This document shows, one piece after another, positions 2,808-59,074 of a stretch of DNA of 59,472 nucleotides. Source of the stretch: a virus. The position numbers and the translations under genes are program-made. Positions within the stretch are counted from its first letter, which is position 1. Each line of letters starts with the position of its first letter. The stretch is from the IMG/VR virus record IMGVR_UViG_3300010354_000097, positions 1 through 59,472 of that record. One strand, given 5' to 3'. The notes beneath the pieces are model-generated. The model was given only the letters and a program-made list of their open reading frames with translations. It searched no databases and was not told the origin of the DNA.

Positions 2808-3230
2808 ATGTACCGGAAGTATATTCAAATTGTCGAAGCAGCTAATAAAGGGTGTCCGGTGGCTACTTATGATATCGATGTTAACTTAAAAAATCGTCAG
2901 AAAGCTATAGACCGGTATCATTATGGTCCCGCTAATCCAGAAGAACCCGAGGACTACTGGAAACAGGCTGCTAAACGTTGGGGTATTACAGAAAAAACTG
3001 CTCAAACAATGAAATGTGCTAACTGTGCTGCATTCGATGTCAGTGATAAAATGTGGAAATGTATCGAAGATGGTGCAAAAGGTAGTGAGTCTAATGCCGA
3101 TACAATGGCTACAATACATAAAGCAGATCTAGGGTATTGTAACTTTCTGCACTTTAAATGTGCAGGAGATCGTAGTTGCACTGCTTGGGTAACAGGTGGT
3201 GCAATCGACAATAAAGATAGAACCGAATGA
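2808..3230 (+). CDS. Conserved cysteine-rich phage protein with capsid-targeting-like N-terminus
   Basis: A 140-residue protein with an ordered set of cysteines: CANC at 70-73, C85, C111 (GYC), C118 and C124 followed by TAW, plus C16. A CxxC...C...C-x-W order recalls high-potential iron-sulfur proteins, though the spacing differs, so a metal or Fe-S site is inference only. The segment GCPVATYDIDVNLKNRQKAI (15-34) looks strongly conserved by memory of similar phage proteins. The N-terminus MYRKYIQIVE|A fits the T4 prohead protease rule (L/I)-x-E, suggesting removal of ten residues and packaging in the head. An AAAAAGGA ribosome binding site precedes the ATG; the stop overlaps the next start (ATGA). 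Confidence 0.6.
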   Translation: MYRKYIQIVEAANKGCPVATYDIDVNLKNRQKAIDRYHYGPANPEEPEDYWKQAAKRWGITEKTAQTMKCANCAAFDVSDKMWKCIEDGAKGSESNADTMATIHKADLGYCNFLHFKCAGDRSCTAWVTGGAIDNKDRTE

Positions 3231-3865
3231 AACAATCTGAAATTATTTTTGAGAATGCTAAAATATTCCAAATAATGGATGATTACGGTCTAGGTTTCAC
3301 CGGTATTGATCAGTATATGAAAAGCAAGGGCTATCGTTTTCTTGCACATGGAGCCATGCAGGTTACATATAAATTACCTAATGCCGATCACGTAATTAAA
3401 ATATTTATGGGCGAAACAGGTTGTTCGCACACAAGACCTAAGATGGATCCCAGGCAGAGATTGATTAAATACTATTACGATTTCTGTAAAAACAATCAAG
3501 ACATACCTTTTCTTCCTAAAATGTTTGAATATCAAACATTTGTTTGGCCAATAAATTACACTGATTATTGTTTGAATTTACAAATCCGTATGGAAGCATT
3601 ATTAGAGCTGAACAATGAAGAAATAGTGTTTTACAGTAGACTTATAAGTTACACAGGAGTATATGATTTTGATATGTTTATAGATGAAATGTCAGAGGAT
3701 TTTCCTAGGCTGGTTAATCAATATAGACGTTTAAAACGATTTTATAATACAGTTATAGTTTTAAACAATTTATCAAAGAAGTATGGTTTTAGATTTGATC
3801 TGCATCCACAGAACATAATGAAAAGAAGCAACGGTACTCCAGTTATTGTAGATCCATGGGCATAA
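3227..3865 (+). CDS. Protein-kinase/aminoglycoside-phosphotransferase-fold protein
   Basis: A 212-residue protein with hallmarks of the kinase fold. The N-lobe has AHGAMQVTYKL (residues 40-50) resembling a glycine-loop strand, and K58 in HVIKIF at the ATP-lysine position. The C-terminal end has a catalytic-loop-like RFDLHPQN (D191, N196) and a metal-loop-like VIVDPWA (D209), where DFG is replaced by DPW. The protein stops right after this motif, so most of the usual C-lobe is missing; it may be a minimal or regulatory kinase. It overlaps the cysteine-rich gene upstream by 4 bases. Substrate unknown. Confidence 0.6.
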   Translation: MKQSEIIFENAKIFQIMDDYGLGFTGIDQYMKSKGYRFLAHGAMQVTYKLPNADHVIKIFMGETGCSHTRPKMDPRQRLIKYYYDFCKNNQDIPFLPKMFEYQTFVWPINYTDYCLNLQIRMEALLELNNEEIVFYSRLISYTGVYDFDMFIDEMSEDFPRLVNQYRRLKRFYNTVIVLNNLSKKYGFRFDLHPQNIMKRSNGTPVIVDPWA

Positions 3866-3866
3866 A

Positions 3867-3968
3867 ATGAGAGCACAAGAATTTGTCGCAGAGTGGGTAT
3901 ACCAAATGCGTCGCGGAAGGAATGAGAAAAATGAGAGATTTGATTCAAATAGTAGAAGGACAATTTAG
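3867..3968 (+). CDS. Possible small basic peptide with internal-protein-like leader
   Basis: A 33-residue ORF starting one base after the stop of the kinase-like gene, read in a different frame from the next gene and overlapping its start. Its first residues MRAQEFVAE closely resemble the T4 internal-protein leader (MKTYQEFIAE), which is cut by the prohead protease after the Glu. The remaining 24 residues are basic (RRGR, SRR). This could be a packaged internal peptide, or the remnant of a longer N-terminus of the following gene joined by a frameshift. The ORF is short, so chance is a real alternative. Confidence 0.3.
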   Translation: MRAQEFVAEWVYQMRRGRNEKNERFDSNSRRTI

Positions 3969-4314
3969 ATCCAACAATGTTGAGGAGTTTGTTCCGGATA
4001 ACGAATCACTTAACAACATAAAATCTAAATATCTTCCCGAATGGGAAATGTTAGATCATAGAACCCTTGAAGCACAATATGTTGCACAGGATCATAGACA
4101 AGCACTAGAATTTGTCAAATATATTAACTCTGTTAGCGAAGATATGGATCACTTTGCAGAAGTAATACAAGATGTCTCTGAAGTTACAATTAAAACAACT
4201 ACCACCGACGTTAATGGATTAACAATATTAGATTTTGAATTAGCTATGCGTATCGACGATTACGCTCGAAAAAATAATATAGAACAGATTAGAGGTGGTG
4301 GTAATTTCGATTGA
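3931..4314 (+). CDS. Hypothetical protein with capsid-targeting-like N-terminus
   Basis: Not recognised. Three in-frame starts exist: TTG 3883, ATG 3922 and ATG 3931. The GGAAGGA at 3915-3921 is nine bases before 3931 but abuts 3922, so 3931 is preferred, giving 127 residues. The N-terminus MRDLIQIVE|G then matches the (L/I)-x-E cleavage rule of T4-type prohead proteases, as in the gene at 2808. The rest is mostly helical and acidic, with no cysteines after the start. It follows the kinase-like gene. If the leader is real the protein is packaged in the head; otherwise the function is unknown. Confidence 0.55.
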   Translation: MRDLIQIVEGQFRSNNVEEFVPDNESLNNIKSKYLPEWEMLDHRTLEAQYVAQDHRQALEFVKYINSVSEDMDHFAEVIQDVSEVTIKTTTTDVNGLTILDFELAMRIDDYARKNNIEQIRGGGNFD

Positions 4315-12581: not shown

Positions 12582-12830
12582 ATGGCTTCTAATCCCGGTT
12601 ATTACGTTAAACAATATCGTGAAACTACCAAATCCACAGTGGACAAAATTTTCGAGGATCTCGAAAACTTTCAAAACTTTTGTGTAACCTATGGTTACAA
12701 TTATAACCCCGCTTTGCTTTATAAAGAGAATAATGGCATTTATAAAGAATTTGTAAAATTTAGTAAAGGTCGCGAACCACGTAATCGTTGGATCGAAGAC
12801 GCTAAAAAATTTAATAGTGAAAATGAGTAA
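12582..12830 (+). CDS. Hypothetical small phage protein
   Basis: An 82-residue, mostly helical, charged protein that was not recognised. AAAGGAACTCAAA precedes the ATG, a good ribosome binding site. Tyr is frequent (YYVKQYRE, YGYNYNPALLY). It overlaps the Acb1-like gene by eight bases (GAAAATGAGTAA), so the two are translated together. Confidence 0.55.
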   Translation: MASNPGYYVKQYRETTKSTVDKIFEDLENFQNFCVTYGYNYNPALLYKENNGIYKEFVKFSKGREPRNRWIEDAKKFNSENE

Positions 12831-13332
12831 GAAGTTACAAGAATATATTGATCTTGTTGAATCTGAACAAGATCATCCTAATGGTACTTACGCAGAGGTT
12901 CTTCCTAGTGTTAAATCACTGCGAGTAATTGAAAAAATTATCAGTCAGCTTAAGATTGATAATCCTACTCCTAGTGCGGAAATTCATTGTACTGTAACTT
13001 ACAGTAGGAAACCTTGTCCGTCTCTGGCAGACTACGAACCAGACTTTCCTATGCGAGCCACAGTTAAAGGATTCAAGATTTTTCCTTTACGCACAGGTGG
13101 TAATTGTTTGGTACTTGAACTGTCTAGTCCTGAGATCGAAGAACTACATGAATATGCTCGTAGTTTGGGTTGTACACACGATTACCCAGAGTACACACCT
13201 CATATTACACTTACATATGCATGGCCATCGGATCAATTGCCCGATATGGATCTCAGTAACATTAATTTAATTTTCGATCATTGGGCAGTTAAACCATTGA
13301 ATCCCGATTATATTCCAGGAAAAGAAGAATGA
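12823..13332 (+). CDS. acb1: Acb1-like anti-CBASS 2H phosphoesterase
   Basis: A 169-residue 2H phosphoesterase with both signature motifs: HCT at 55-57 in IHCTVTYSRK and HIT at 127-129 in YTPHITLTYA. Size, the NGTYAEV segment and YSRKP after the first motif resemble T4 gp57B (Acb1), which degrades the cyclic nucleotides that activate CBASS defence. ATG 12823 is preferred over the GTG at 12817. The N-terminus MSKKLQEYIDLVE|S also looks like a capsid-targeting leader with an (L/I)-x-E cut site, so the enzyme might be packaged and injected. An RNA-ligase-type (LigT) activity is the alternative. It overlaps the next gene by four bases. Confidence 0.75.
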   Translation: MSKKLQEYIDLVESEQDHPNGTYAEVLPSVKSLRVIEKIISQLKIDNPTPSAEIHCTVTYSRKPCPSLADYEPDFPMRATVKGFKIFPLRTGGNCLVLELSSPEIEELHEYARSLGCTHDYPEYTPHITLTYAWPSDQLPDMDLSNINLIFDHWAVKPLNPDYIPGKEE

Positions 13333-17045: not shown

Positions 17046-17846
17046 TTGACTTACTTACCAAAAACAGAATTTCAAGCCGACACTGATGTTGCCGGTAAAC
17101 ATAATCAACCGGAGTTTGTTCCTTTGGACATTCCAGTCTACACCACTAGCGAAAATGTTACTAAACCCGGACGACATCTTAGCGAAATAATTCGAGAAAG
17201 ACTTAAACGAGATAATGCTCGATTTCATGCTAATGACAATATTAGCGATTACATCAACGAATATGAAATTGACCAACTTGTAGATGAAGTAGCTGAAAAG
17301 TTTCAAGGTGTTCTAAACGCCTTGGTTATTGATACAGAGAACGACCATAATACTCAAGAAACTGCTCGCCGTGTAGCTAAAATGATGGTTAAAGAAACAT
17401 TTAGTGGTCGTTATCGCACTGTACCCAAAGTTACAGCATTTCCTAATATGGGATATAAAAGCCTGTATACTACTGGGCCGATTAGCATTCGTAGTACTTG
17501 TGCTCATCATTTTCAAAACATTGTCGGACGTTGTTGGGTAGGTATTGTACCTGAAGAAGAAGTAATCGGTCTAAGTAAATTTAATCGTATTGTACATCAT
17601 ATTGCTGAACGCCCACAGATTCAAGAAGAACTCACTACACAGATTGCCGATGCTCTTAAACAATATGCAAAAACTGAACATATTGCTGTAGTAGTCAAAG
17701 CCGAACATCATTGTATGACTATGCGTGGTGTCAGAGAACATGAGTCGGATATGACAACTGCTATTATGCTGGGAGCATTTAACACAGATCCAGCTCTTAA
17801 AAAAGAGTTCTATGATATTTGCTTGAGCATGAAAGGCCACGGTTAA
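17046..17846 (+). CDS. folE: GTP cyclohydrolase I
   Basis: A 266-residue FolE, which opens GTP to 7,8-dihydroneopterin triphosphate, the first step to 7-deazaguanines. The catalytic core (residues ~85-250) has HNTQETARRVAKMM, STCAHHF with zinc ligands C152 and H155 and catalytic H154, VIGLSKFNRIVHHIAERPQI, and EHHCMTMRGV with C223. All ligands are intact. The N-terminal ~75 residues are an extension compared with bacterial FolE (about 220 residues). TTG 17046 is set by GGAG eight bases upstream. With queD, queE and dpdA it points to base modification rather than folate supply. Confidence 0.95.
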   Translation: MTYLPKTEFQADTDVAGKHNQPEFVPLDIPVYTTSENVTKPGRHLSEIIRERLKRDNARFHANDNISDYINEYEIDQLVDEVAEKFQGVLNALVIDTENDHNTQETARRVAKMMVKETFSGRYRTVPKVTAFPNMGYKSLYTTGPISIRSTCAHHFQNIVGRCWVGIVPEEEVIGLSKFNRIVHHIAERPQIQEELTTQIADALKQYAKTEHIAVVVKAEHHCMTMRGVREHESDMTTAIMLGAFNTDPALKKEFYDICLSMKGHG

Positions 17847-18887: not shown

Positions 18888-19442
18888 ATGGCAAAATCTT
18901 CAACACAAGAACTAATCCGTCATATGGAACAGAACTTTCCTTATCGCGGACCCGTTACTTACAAATACACTAGCACAAAGGAATATCACGATTCATTTCC
19001 TTGTGCATATCGTCAATGGCGAGCTGACAGTCATTGTAATCTAATTCATGGTTACAGTTTTAGTATGAAATTTTATTTCGGCACCAATGATCTTGACGTT
19101 CGCAATTGGGCTGCTGACTATGGTGGTCTAAAAGAACTTAAAAAAATTCTCGAAGATCAATTTGATCATACTTTACTAGTAGCCGAAGATGATCCAGAGT
19201 TAGAAACATTTAAACTGCTACAGGAAAAACATTTAGCCAAATTAACTATCCTTCCGCGACTAGGTTGTGAAGGTCTGGCTGATATGTTGTATAAGTATGT
19301 TAACGGAGTTTATATTCCAGATATGTGGGGACCGGGAGAAGCTGCCCGTCTCTGGTGTTATCGTGTAGAAGTTCGAGAAACACAAAGCAATATGGCATTT
19401 AGAGAAGGGCACAGAGAATGGGAAGAAAATCTCCTTGATTAA
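18888..19442 (+). CDS. queD: 6-carboxy-5,6,7,8-tetrahydropterin synthase-like QueD
   Basis: A 184-residue QueD of the phage type, turning dihydroneopterin triphosphate into carboxytetrahydropterin. The active region is ADSHCNLIHGYSFSMKFYF, with catalytic-type C50 and zinc-type H54; the usual HGH is HGY here, so the third zinc ligand differs from E. coli QueD (H49 just before the Cys might compensate). ADYGGLKELKKIL matches the DF..LK step, FDHTLL (H94) is the second catalytic site, CEGLADMLYKYV the helix, and RVEVRETQSNMA carries the Glu. Start supported by AGAGGCAAGAG. It lies between folE and queE, so the pathway order is kept. Confidence 0.88.
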   Translation: MAKSSTQELIRHMEQNFPYRGPVTYKYTSTKEYHDSFPCAYRQWRADSHCNLIHGYSFSMKFYFGTNDLDVRNWAADYGGLKELKKILEDQFDHTLLVAEDDPELETFKLLQEKHLAKLTILPRLGCEGLADMLYKYVNGVYIPDMWGPGEAARLWCYRVEVRETQSNMAFREGHREWEENLLD

Positions 19443-58231: not shown

Positions 58232-59074
58232 ATGAAAACAAATTATCTTAACAATCGCGATATGCTTCGCGAAATTCATAAAAGCAAAATTTCGTATTCT
58301 AGCTTTAAATCCGTTGAAGATCGAGATTACGATATTATCGTACACGATCTAAAAGAAATCGAACAACGAATTACTGAAGCTAAAGAAACTCGTGCTGCTC
58401 GAATAGCACAAAAAAATTACGAAAATTCTTCCCGCGAGAATAAAAAAGTAAAATTAGAAGAATTTAAAATCCCTCCGGATAGTATCCCTGTTACAGATCT
58501 AGTTTTTAGATTAATGACATGGCAACATATTCCGGAAAATGCCAGCTTTACTGAAAAAATGAATAGGCTCGAAGAAGAATCTGAGGATTCAGACGAAGAA
58601 CTAGACATTGAGACAATTAAAATGAGTAAACGGCATGTTCGTGTTAACTTTCCTCCATTCGAACACTATCGAATTAATTCGGATCTTAGTCCTTACTGTG
58701 TAGGAAGAAGTCATTGGAACGGCGACTTAGAGGGCGGATCTTTTTCTAAAGACCATGGATCAATGACTCGTGAATTGGCTATGATGTTTATGAAACTATG
58801 CGATCGCTATGCTAGTCGAGGAAATTGGCGTGGATATACTTATAATGACGAAATGAAAGGACAGGCCCTCCTTCATTTAACTCAAATCGGTTTACAATTC
58901 GACGAAAGCAAAAGTAGTAACCCTTTTAGTTATTATACACAAAGTTTAACTAACAGTTTTACCCGTGTATTGAACATCGAAAAACGTCATCAAAATATTC
59001 GAGACGATATTCTTGAACTCAATAACTATAATCCTAGCTACACACGCCAAGGCGACTGGAAATACGACGAATAA
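58232..59074 (+). CDS. 55: Late sigma factor gp55
   Basis: A 280-residue gp55-type sigma factor (185 in T4) that directs host RNA polymerase to TATAAATA-type late promoters with the gp45 clamp. The sigma region 2-like core is in the C-terminal half: YASRGNWRGYTYNDEMKGQA, LQFDESKSSNPFSYYTQSLT and NSFTRVLNIEKRHQNIRDD. The N-terminal ~100 residues are an extra, charged segment that includes an acidic Ser/Glu run (EEESEDSDEELDIE). It is expressed from a sigma70-type promoter and is followed directly by gene 47. Confidence 0.88.
   Translation: MKTNYLNNRDMLREIHKSKISYSSFKSVEDRDYDIIVHDLKEIEQRITEAKETRAARIAQKNYENSSRENKKVKLEEFKIPPDSIPVTDLVFRLMTWQHIPENASFTEKMNRLEEESEDSDEELDIETIKMSKRHVRVNFPPFEHYRINSDLSPYCVGRSHWNGDLEGGSFSKDHGSMTRELAMMFMKLCDRYASRGNWRGYTYNDEMKGQALLHLTQIGLQFDESKSSNPFSYYTQSLTNSFTRVLNIEKRHQNIRDDILELNNYNPSYTRQGDWKYDE

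Follow-up and report, generated by a model that had tools for sequence, protein, structure and literature searches.

A T4-type capsid-targeting-like leader recurs on Acb1-family anti-CBASS enzymes and may mark some of them for packaging and injection

Anti-CBASS hydrolases are usually viewed as being made once infection has begun. An Acb1-like open reading frame (ORF) with a short N-terminal leader raises the question of whether some of these enzymes could already arrive with the virion, as the sequence-only reading of this locus had suggested. The ORF lies on a 59,472-base IMG/VR fragment of an uncultured T4-like phage (IMGVR_UViG_3300010354_000097), which is referred to here as the window. 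The window carries T4-type baseplate genes, a DNA polymerase gene and a gene for a gp55-type late sigma factor, the latter pointing to a T4-like late programme; the nearest named relatives of its gp6 belong to jumbo myoviruses, e.g., Salicola phage SCTP-2, Agrobacterium phage Atu_ph07 and PA5oct. The acb1-like ORF is part of a run of co-directional, overlapping genes, with an in-frame GTG at 12817 ahead of its ATG, which overlaps the stop codon of the preceding 82-aa ORF (ATGAGTAA), so that acb1 is likely to be translationally coupled to the latter. The coordinates of all features are compiled in Table 1.

Table 1. Features of the window (positions in window coordinates; the arrow marks a putative cut).
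Feature	Position	Strand	Evidence or remark
140-aa ORF, unrelated to Acb1, function unassigned	2808..3230	+	leader MYRKYIQIVE↓A
Pterin-4a-carbinolamine dehydratase (PF01329)	3922..4314	+	leader MRKMRDLIQIVE↓G
Upstream ORF, 82 aa, function unassigned	12582..12830	+	overlaps acb1 start; syntenic in L013
acb1-like ORF, 169 aa	12823..13332	+	ATG 12823 to stop 13332; 2H phosphoesterase, Acb1 family; PF23474, phrog_755, PDB 7t26, AlphaFold
CTS-like leader, residues 1-13	12823..12861	+	MSKKLQEYIDLVE; putative prohead-protease cut after E13 (L-V-E↓S); T4 CTS comparison; kept in L013
Linker SEQDHPN, putative cut to Acb1 core (G21)	12862..12882	+	EQDH also in L021 leader
First catalytic motif, H55-C-T57	12985..12993	+	aligned to T4 H44/T46
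Second catalytic motif, H127-I-T129	13201..13209	+	aligned to T4 H113/T115
K157, at the place of T4/FBB1 E141	13291..13293	+	alignment of 44 sequences
T4 gp55-type late sigma factor	58232..59074	+	phrog_12791, E=4.1e-75

Family, fold and catalytic tetrad together strongly support the ORF as a true Acb1-family protein, in agreement with what had been read from the sequence. Pfam PF23474 (Acb1) matched residues 20-163 with E=2.3e-29 and 102.4 bits (cut-off 27), which was also the result of the own-genome search; PHROG 755 matched with E=3e-37, and the best PDB sequence match was the Acb1 of Erwinia phage FBB1 (7t26, E=1.6e-17). PADLOC gave no defence gene match for this ORF. Both HxT motifs of a 2H phosphoesterase were present, as had been noted previously, and the tetrad H55, T57, H127 and T129 was invariant in an alignment of 44 Acb1 sequences. 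From these properties, the enzyme is predicted to hydrolyze CBASS cyclic oligonucleotides. Acb1 relatives were obtained via an alignment search of viral contigs, among which L013 (69% identity) was the only close relative of the window Acb1 found; a single-protein query against viral contigs returned zero relatives of the ORF. The DNA polymerase gene of L013 (L013:221-4055) appears to be interrupted by an insertion that resembles an intein or endonuclease.

The family is labelled RNA ligase in databases and E. coli LigT shares its fold (Z 12.0), which would fit an RNA-repair or LigT-type 2',3'-cyclic phosphodiesterase and not an enzyme that hydrolyzes defence signals. We regard this as very improbable. 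The AlphaFold model of the window Acb1 (pLDDT 84.9) was closest to the FBB1 Acb1 structures 7t27 and 7t26 (7t27: Z 18.7, 140 residues at 1.9 Å), with Acb1 structures at Z 16.2-18.7, so that the structural comparison favoured Acb1 and LigT was not the best match. In contrast to PF23474, which was far above its cut-off, both the LigT profile and TIGR02258 (16.3 bits vs 65.7) stayed below theirs. Moreover, the aromatic residues that stack on the ligand in Acb1 (Y12, W74, F107 and W147) correspond to Y23, F87, Y121 and Y163 in the window, all of them aromatic and three conservatively changed.

Among the ligand contacts, the position of E141, which in FBB1/T4 Acb1 contacts adenine N6 (PMC9117128), was occupied by glutamate in 35 of the 44 Acb1 sequences, whereas lysine was limited to the window (K157), L013 and L021. 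The substrate preference of the window Acb1 may differ. One could go further and propose that E141 to K157, together with W74 to F87, alters base recognition and directs the enzyme to a different cyclic oligonucleotide system, a reading that fits packaging and ordinary expression alike. We consider it unlikely, though not negligible, given that ligand recognition by Acb1 is mainly base-independent (PMC9117128) and that phenylalanine at the W74 position is common (23 of the 44 sequences).

With regard to the leader, no in-frame ATG, GTG or TTG was found between codon 1 and the first residue of the core, G21, and the approximately 20-residue extension is therefore truly translated; a mis-called start codon was rejected on the same grounds. 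In T4, the first ten residues of IPIII (MKTYQEFIAE↓A) are enough for packaging; within this T4 capsid-targeting propeptide (CTS), positions 4 and 7 are relevant for targeting and 8 and 10 for processing, and the gp21 protease follows an L/I-x-E rule in cutting it (PMC9026906). MSKKLQEYIDLVE↓SEQ resembles this CTS: the window segment L-Q-E-Y-I-D-L-V-E↓S has the same order of residues, its glutamate being preceded by two additional ones, and L11-V12-E13↓S14 makes an L/I-x-E site 10-19 residues from the start, as the gp21 rule asks. By sequence match, then, the leader may be cleavable after E13. The L013 leader reads MTKNLREYIDLVESEQDHPD, and non-synonymous divergence between the window and L013 was lower in the leader than in the core (pN of 0.131 vs 0.236), which indicates that the leader is at least as constrained as the core. 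AlphaFold placed a short helix at residues 8-13 ahead of the fold, with low confidence for the leader. Within the viral contigs, the exact window leader occurred on the contig of L013 only, and no non-Acb1 carriers were found elsewhere. A profile of T-even CTS leaders (see below) gave p=0.09 for the window leader and p=0.29 for that of L013; taken alone, the window leader is thus suggestive as a CTS. The earlier proposal of a cleavable leader is supported insofar as the leader is translated, conserved in L013 and endowed with an L-V-E↓S site, but the leader is a divergent one.

These p values, together with the cleavage glutamate lying two residues further than in IPIII, weaken the case for packaging, and they also bear on its main rival, according to which the protein is an ordinary cytoplasmic Acb1 expressed from the injected genome, like T4 Acb1, with the leader as a decayed or neutral N-terminal extension. 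We take this alternative seriously and regard it as a little short of an even chance. It is favoured by T4 Acb1 itself, whose N-terminus is short (MMEFKDFSTGLY) and which nevertheless defeats CBASS (PMC9117128); T4 Acb1 works without a full CTS. A leader better conserved than the core it precedes, however, speaks against a decayed or neutral extension.

A further argument against the latter came from other Acb1 proteins, in whose leaders the recurring positions are those of T4 CTS residues 4, 7, 8 and 10. Closer CTS matches than that of the window were found on environmental Acb1, often at its start, namely MKSFKEFIME (L080), MKTVKEFLTE (L050), MSFKDFMTE (L021), MRFSEFCNE (L088) and KRKTFIDYLNE (L023). 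Among cultured phages, Cronobacter phage LPCS28 (MKTFAQLVE↓S) and Pantoea phage Phynn are candidate carriers of an Acb1 with such a leader. A strict CTS pattern, written post hoc, matched 10 of 35 Acb1 leaders, compared with 0.08 expected from shuffled leaders; for a laxer pattern, likewise post hoc, these values were 16 of 35, window included, and 0.46. Since these patterns, as well as the lineage motif described below, were chosen once the sequences had been seen, we also employed an independent profile trained solely on 44 T-even-type internal-protein leaders. Of the 35 Acb1 leaders, 11 reached p<0.05 with this profile (p=5.6e-12 when combined by Fisher's method), so that similar Acb1 leaders both exceed the shuffled expectation and match T-even CTS. 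A position-specific matrix built from the Acb1 leaders was dropped (with small pseudocounts, it ranked T4 proteins poorly), and the patterns and the T-even profile were used in its place. These data indicate that environmental T4-like phages repeatedly bear CTS-type leaders on their Acb1, and the family signal, which supports the packaging proposal, is stronger than that of the window alone. Most Tevenvirinae Acb1, on the other hand, lack a full CTS, as ordinary cytoplasmic expression would predict.

In the T4 genome, the strict pattern retrieved six ORFs, including gp24 and the packaged proteins IPII and IPIII. Of these, gp24 is a gp21 substrate (PMC9026906). Two small T4 proteins also fitted the strict pattern (OL964735, 16753-16917, MKTFKEFIKE..., and 111711-111953, LEFKQFLYEA...) and could be unrecognised packaged proteins.

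The window leader has counterparts within the window itself. Three ORFs, namely acb1 and those starting at 2808 and 3922, have (Y/L)-I-x-(I/L)-V-E at the N-terminus, a motif chosen post hoc that followed 1 of 4007 internal methionines. ORF 2808 belongs to a family of 386 environmental phage loci (83-91% identity in the best 80 of 386), and the leaders of both ORFs persist in kin phages; a pattern-based collection of kin pterin-dehydratase N-termini gave none. Similar leaders on unrelated proteins would be consistent with packaging, which is weakened, in turn, by the p value of 0.58 that the ORF 3922 leader obtained with the T-even profile and by the nature of its bearer, a metabolic-type enzyme and thus an unexpected cargo. 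Similar leaders on a pterin dehydratase and a conserved 140-aa protein, along with the short helix in the AlphaFold model, would also fit a function unrelated to packaging, e.g., a helix for docking or dimerisation, or a tag that localises several phage proteins made during infection. We judge this improbable, as the conserved positions are those mapped for the CTS, with a protease-type L/I-x-E site at their end, and other CTS-type genes surround CTS-type Acb1 genes. The phage with the leader-bearing pterin dehydratase also encodes a GTP cyclohydrolase I (17046-17846) and a PTPS-family protein (18888-19442). The stretch 3227-3865, whose product starts with MKQSEIIFEN, matched phage protein kinases (T7 gp0.7-type) weakly.

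On a tree built from Acb1 cores, with the leaders left out, the window and L013 fell into a nine-row group (SH-aLRT 94) that also holds L021 and L023, both of which have leaders that clearly match the CTS (T-even profile p=0.0003 and p=0.004, respectively). The CTS-type label underwent about seven changes on this tree, of which the starred branches force only two; repeated gain of such leaders on Acb1 is suggested. An S77 prohead protease, the type of enzyme to which gp21 belongs, was encoded on the contigs of L021 and L014 and in near-complete jumbo phage contigs of the kin (L199, L236, L257, L101 and L110). In L080, L081 and L088, CTS-bearing neighbours adjoin the CTS-bearing Acb1 gene; on the 146-kb phage contig of L088 (G021, read as L305), five CTS-type ORFs including Acb1 are clustered at C1:80656-86006, which we regard as a candidate injected-protein locus. 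The company of L021 and L023, the S77 proteases and the CTS-bearing neighbours speak for packaging. In contrast, the near-complete kin genome G029 (357 kb) had zero strict-pattern leaders and a mild excess with the lax pattern (10 leaders vs 5.2 shuffled). Such a low number weakens the proposal, and we make no claim that this lineage packages many proteins. A search of 23 kin contigs gave no Acb1, so that acb1 seems to be sporadic among kin phages.

The genomic setting of the window was less favourable to packaging. Neither head genes nor a prohead protease were found within its 59 kb, and a late-promoter scan of the window detected TATAAATA less often than expected by chance, with one copy before gp6; immediately ahead of the acb1 gene group, no late promoter was evident. 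The latter result is again in line with an ordinary cytoplasmic Acb1.

Taking both sides together, we hold with moderate confidence that the Acb1-family enzyme of the window bears a divergent T4-type capsid-targeting propeptide, through which it would be packaged, cut and injected. According to this model, the Acb1 precursor would enter the core of the prohead by means of its first 13 or so residues and be processed behind E13 by an S77 protease like gp21. Once mature, the enzyme would exit the capsid together with the DNA and destroy the alarm nucleotide as soon as infection starts, while Acb1 made from the genome during infection would account for continued activity in the cytoplasm. More generally, the chances seem to us about even that, in scattered T4-like phages, Acb1 has joined the arsenal of injected internal proteins by means of a cleavable leader, with the CBASS signal being destroyed before phage gene expression. 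The earlier idea of a packaged, injected Acb1 thus gains from the CTS leaders that recur on Acb1 and on two more window ORFs and from the S77 protease of kin phages; the divergence of the window leader itself counts against it. If some Acb1 is indeed packaged, phages would be able to counter nucleotide-signalling immunity from time zero, in the way that T4 internal proteins counter restriction enzymes; the internal-protein system would then comprise, beyond restriction inhibitors, an enzyme that degrades an immune signal, and the leader would provide a sequence tag for finding more injected anti-defence proteins.

Compared with known systems, the window Acb1 is akin to T4 Acb1 (gp57B) and FBB1 Acb1 (7t26, 7t27; PMC9117128) in PF23474, the HxT/HxT motifs, the 2H fold and the aromatic contacts, at approximately 30% identity. 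It differs from both in the changes of E141 to K and W147 to Y, and from T4 Acb1 in an additional leader of about 11 residues. T4 acb1 adjoins ipI (PMC9117128), a neighbourhood that lends some support to packaging, whereas the window acb1 is not located beside ip genes. The phosphodiesterase of phage BCSR5 (PDB 9q2g, 9q2y) shares the Acb1 fold (Z 16-17) and is more distant (28% identity). In Roseobacter phage DSS3P8, a gene annotated as HK97 prohead protease (L309:2489-2941) matched the Acb1 domain instead, and its annotation is probably wrong.

T4 IPI, IPII and IPIII are CTS-tagged, cut by gp21 and injected, and block GmrSD enzymes (PMC9026906, PMC12373910), and CTS-tagged injected anti-restriction proteins are already known (PMC9026906, PMC12373910, PMC9391042). 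The window resembles this system in a short leader with an aromatic or hydrophobic residue, an acidic one, an aromatic one and I/L, followed by L/I-x-E, in the presence of similar leaders on unrelated proteins of the same phage and in an anti-defence payload. It differs in its payload, which would act enzymatically on a signal nucleotide instead of inhibiting restriction enzymes, and in a leader two residues longer before the cut than that of IPIII; further, the internal proteins are packaged proteins, whereas packaging of the window Acb1 is predicted from its sequence.

A literature search that reached few subscription papers came across neither a CTS on Acb1 nor a packaged Acb1, in keeping with the earlier statement that a packaged Acb1 had not been described. 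While Acb1 and CTS-tagged injected proteins were each known before, the recurrent CTS-like leader on Acb1 is apparently unreported. Packaging of 2H domains by other means had, however, been proposed: a 2017 survey described fusions of 2H domains with portal or MuF proteins, regarded these polyvalent proteins as likely packaged and proposed that they perhaps degrade defence nucleotides (PMC5512222). In line with this, the portal protein of Rhizobium phage RHph_Y1_1 (L012:1043-2890) consists of PF06381 and a C-terminal PF23474 domain (E=3.4e-35) with both HxT motifs kept, and 53 phage records matched the domain query, the Pam3 portal (PDB 8hds) among them. In these fusions, as in the window, an Acb1-type domain is predicted to travel with the virion, by covalent attachment to the portal in another phage group and by a cleavable-type leader in the phage described here.
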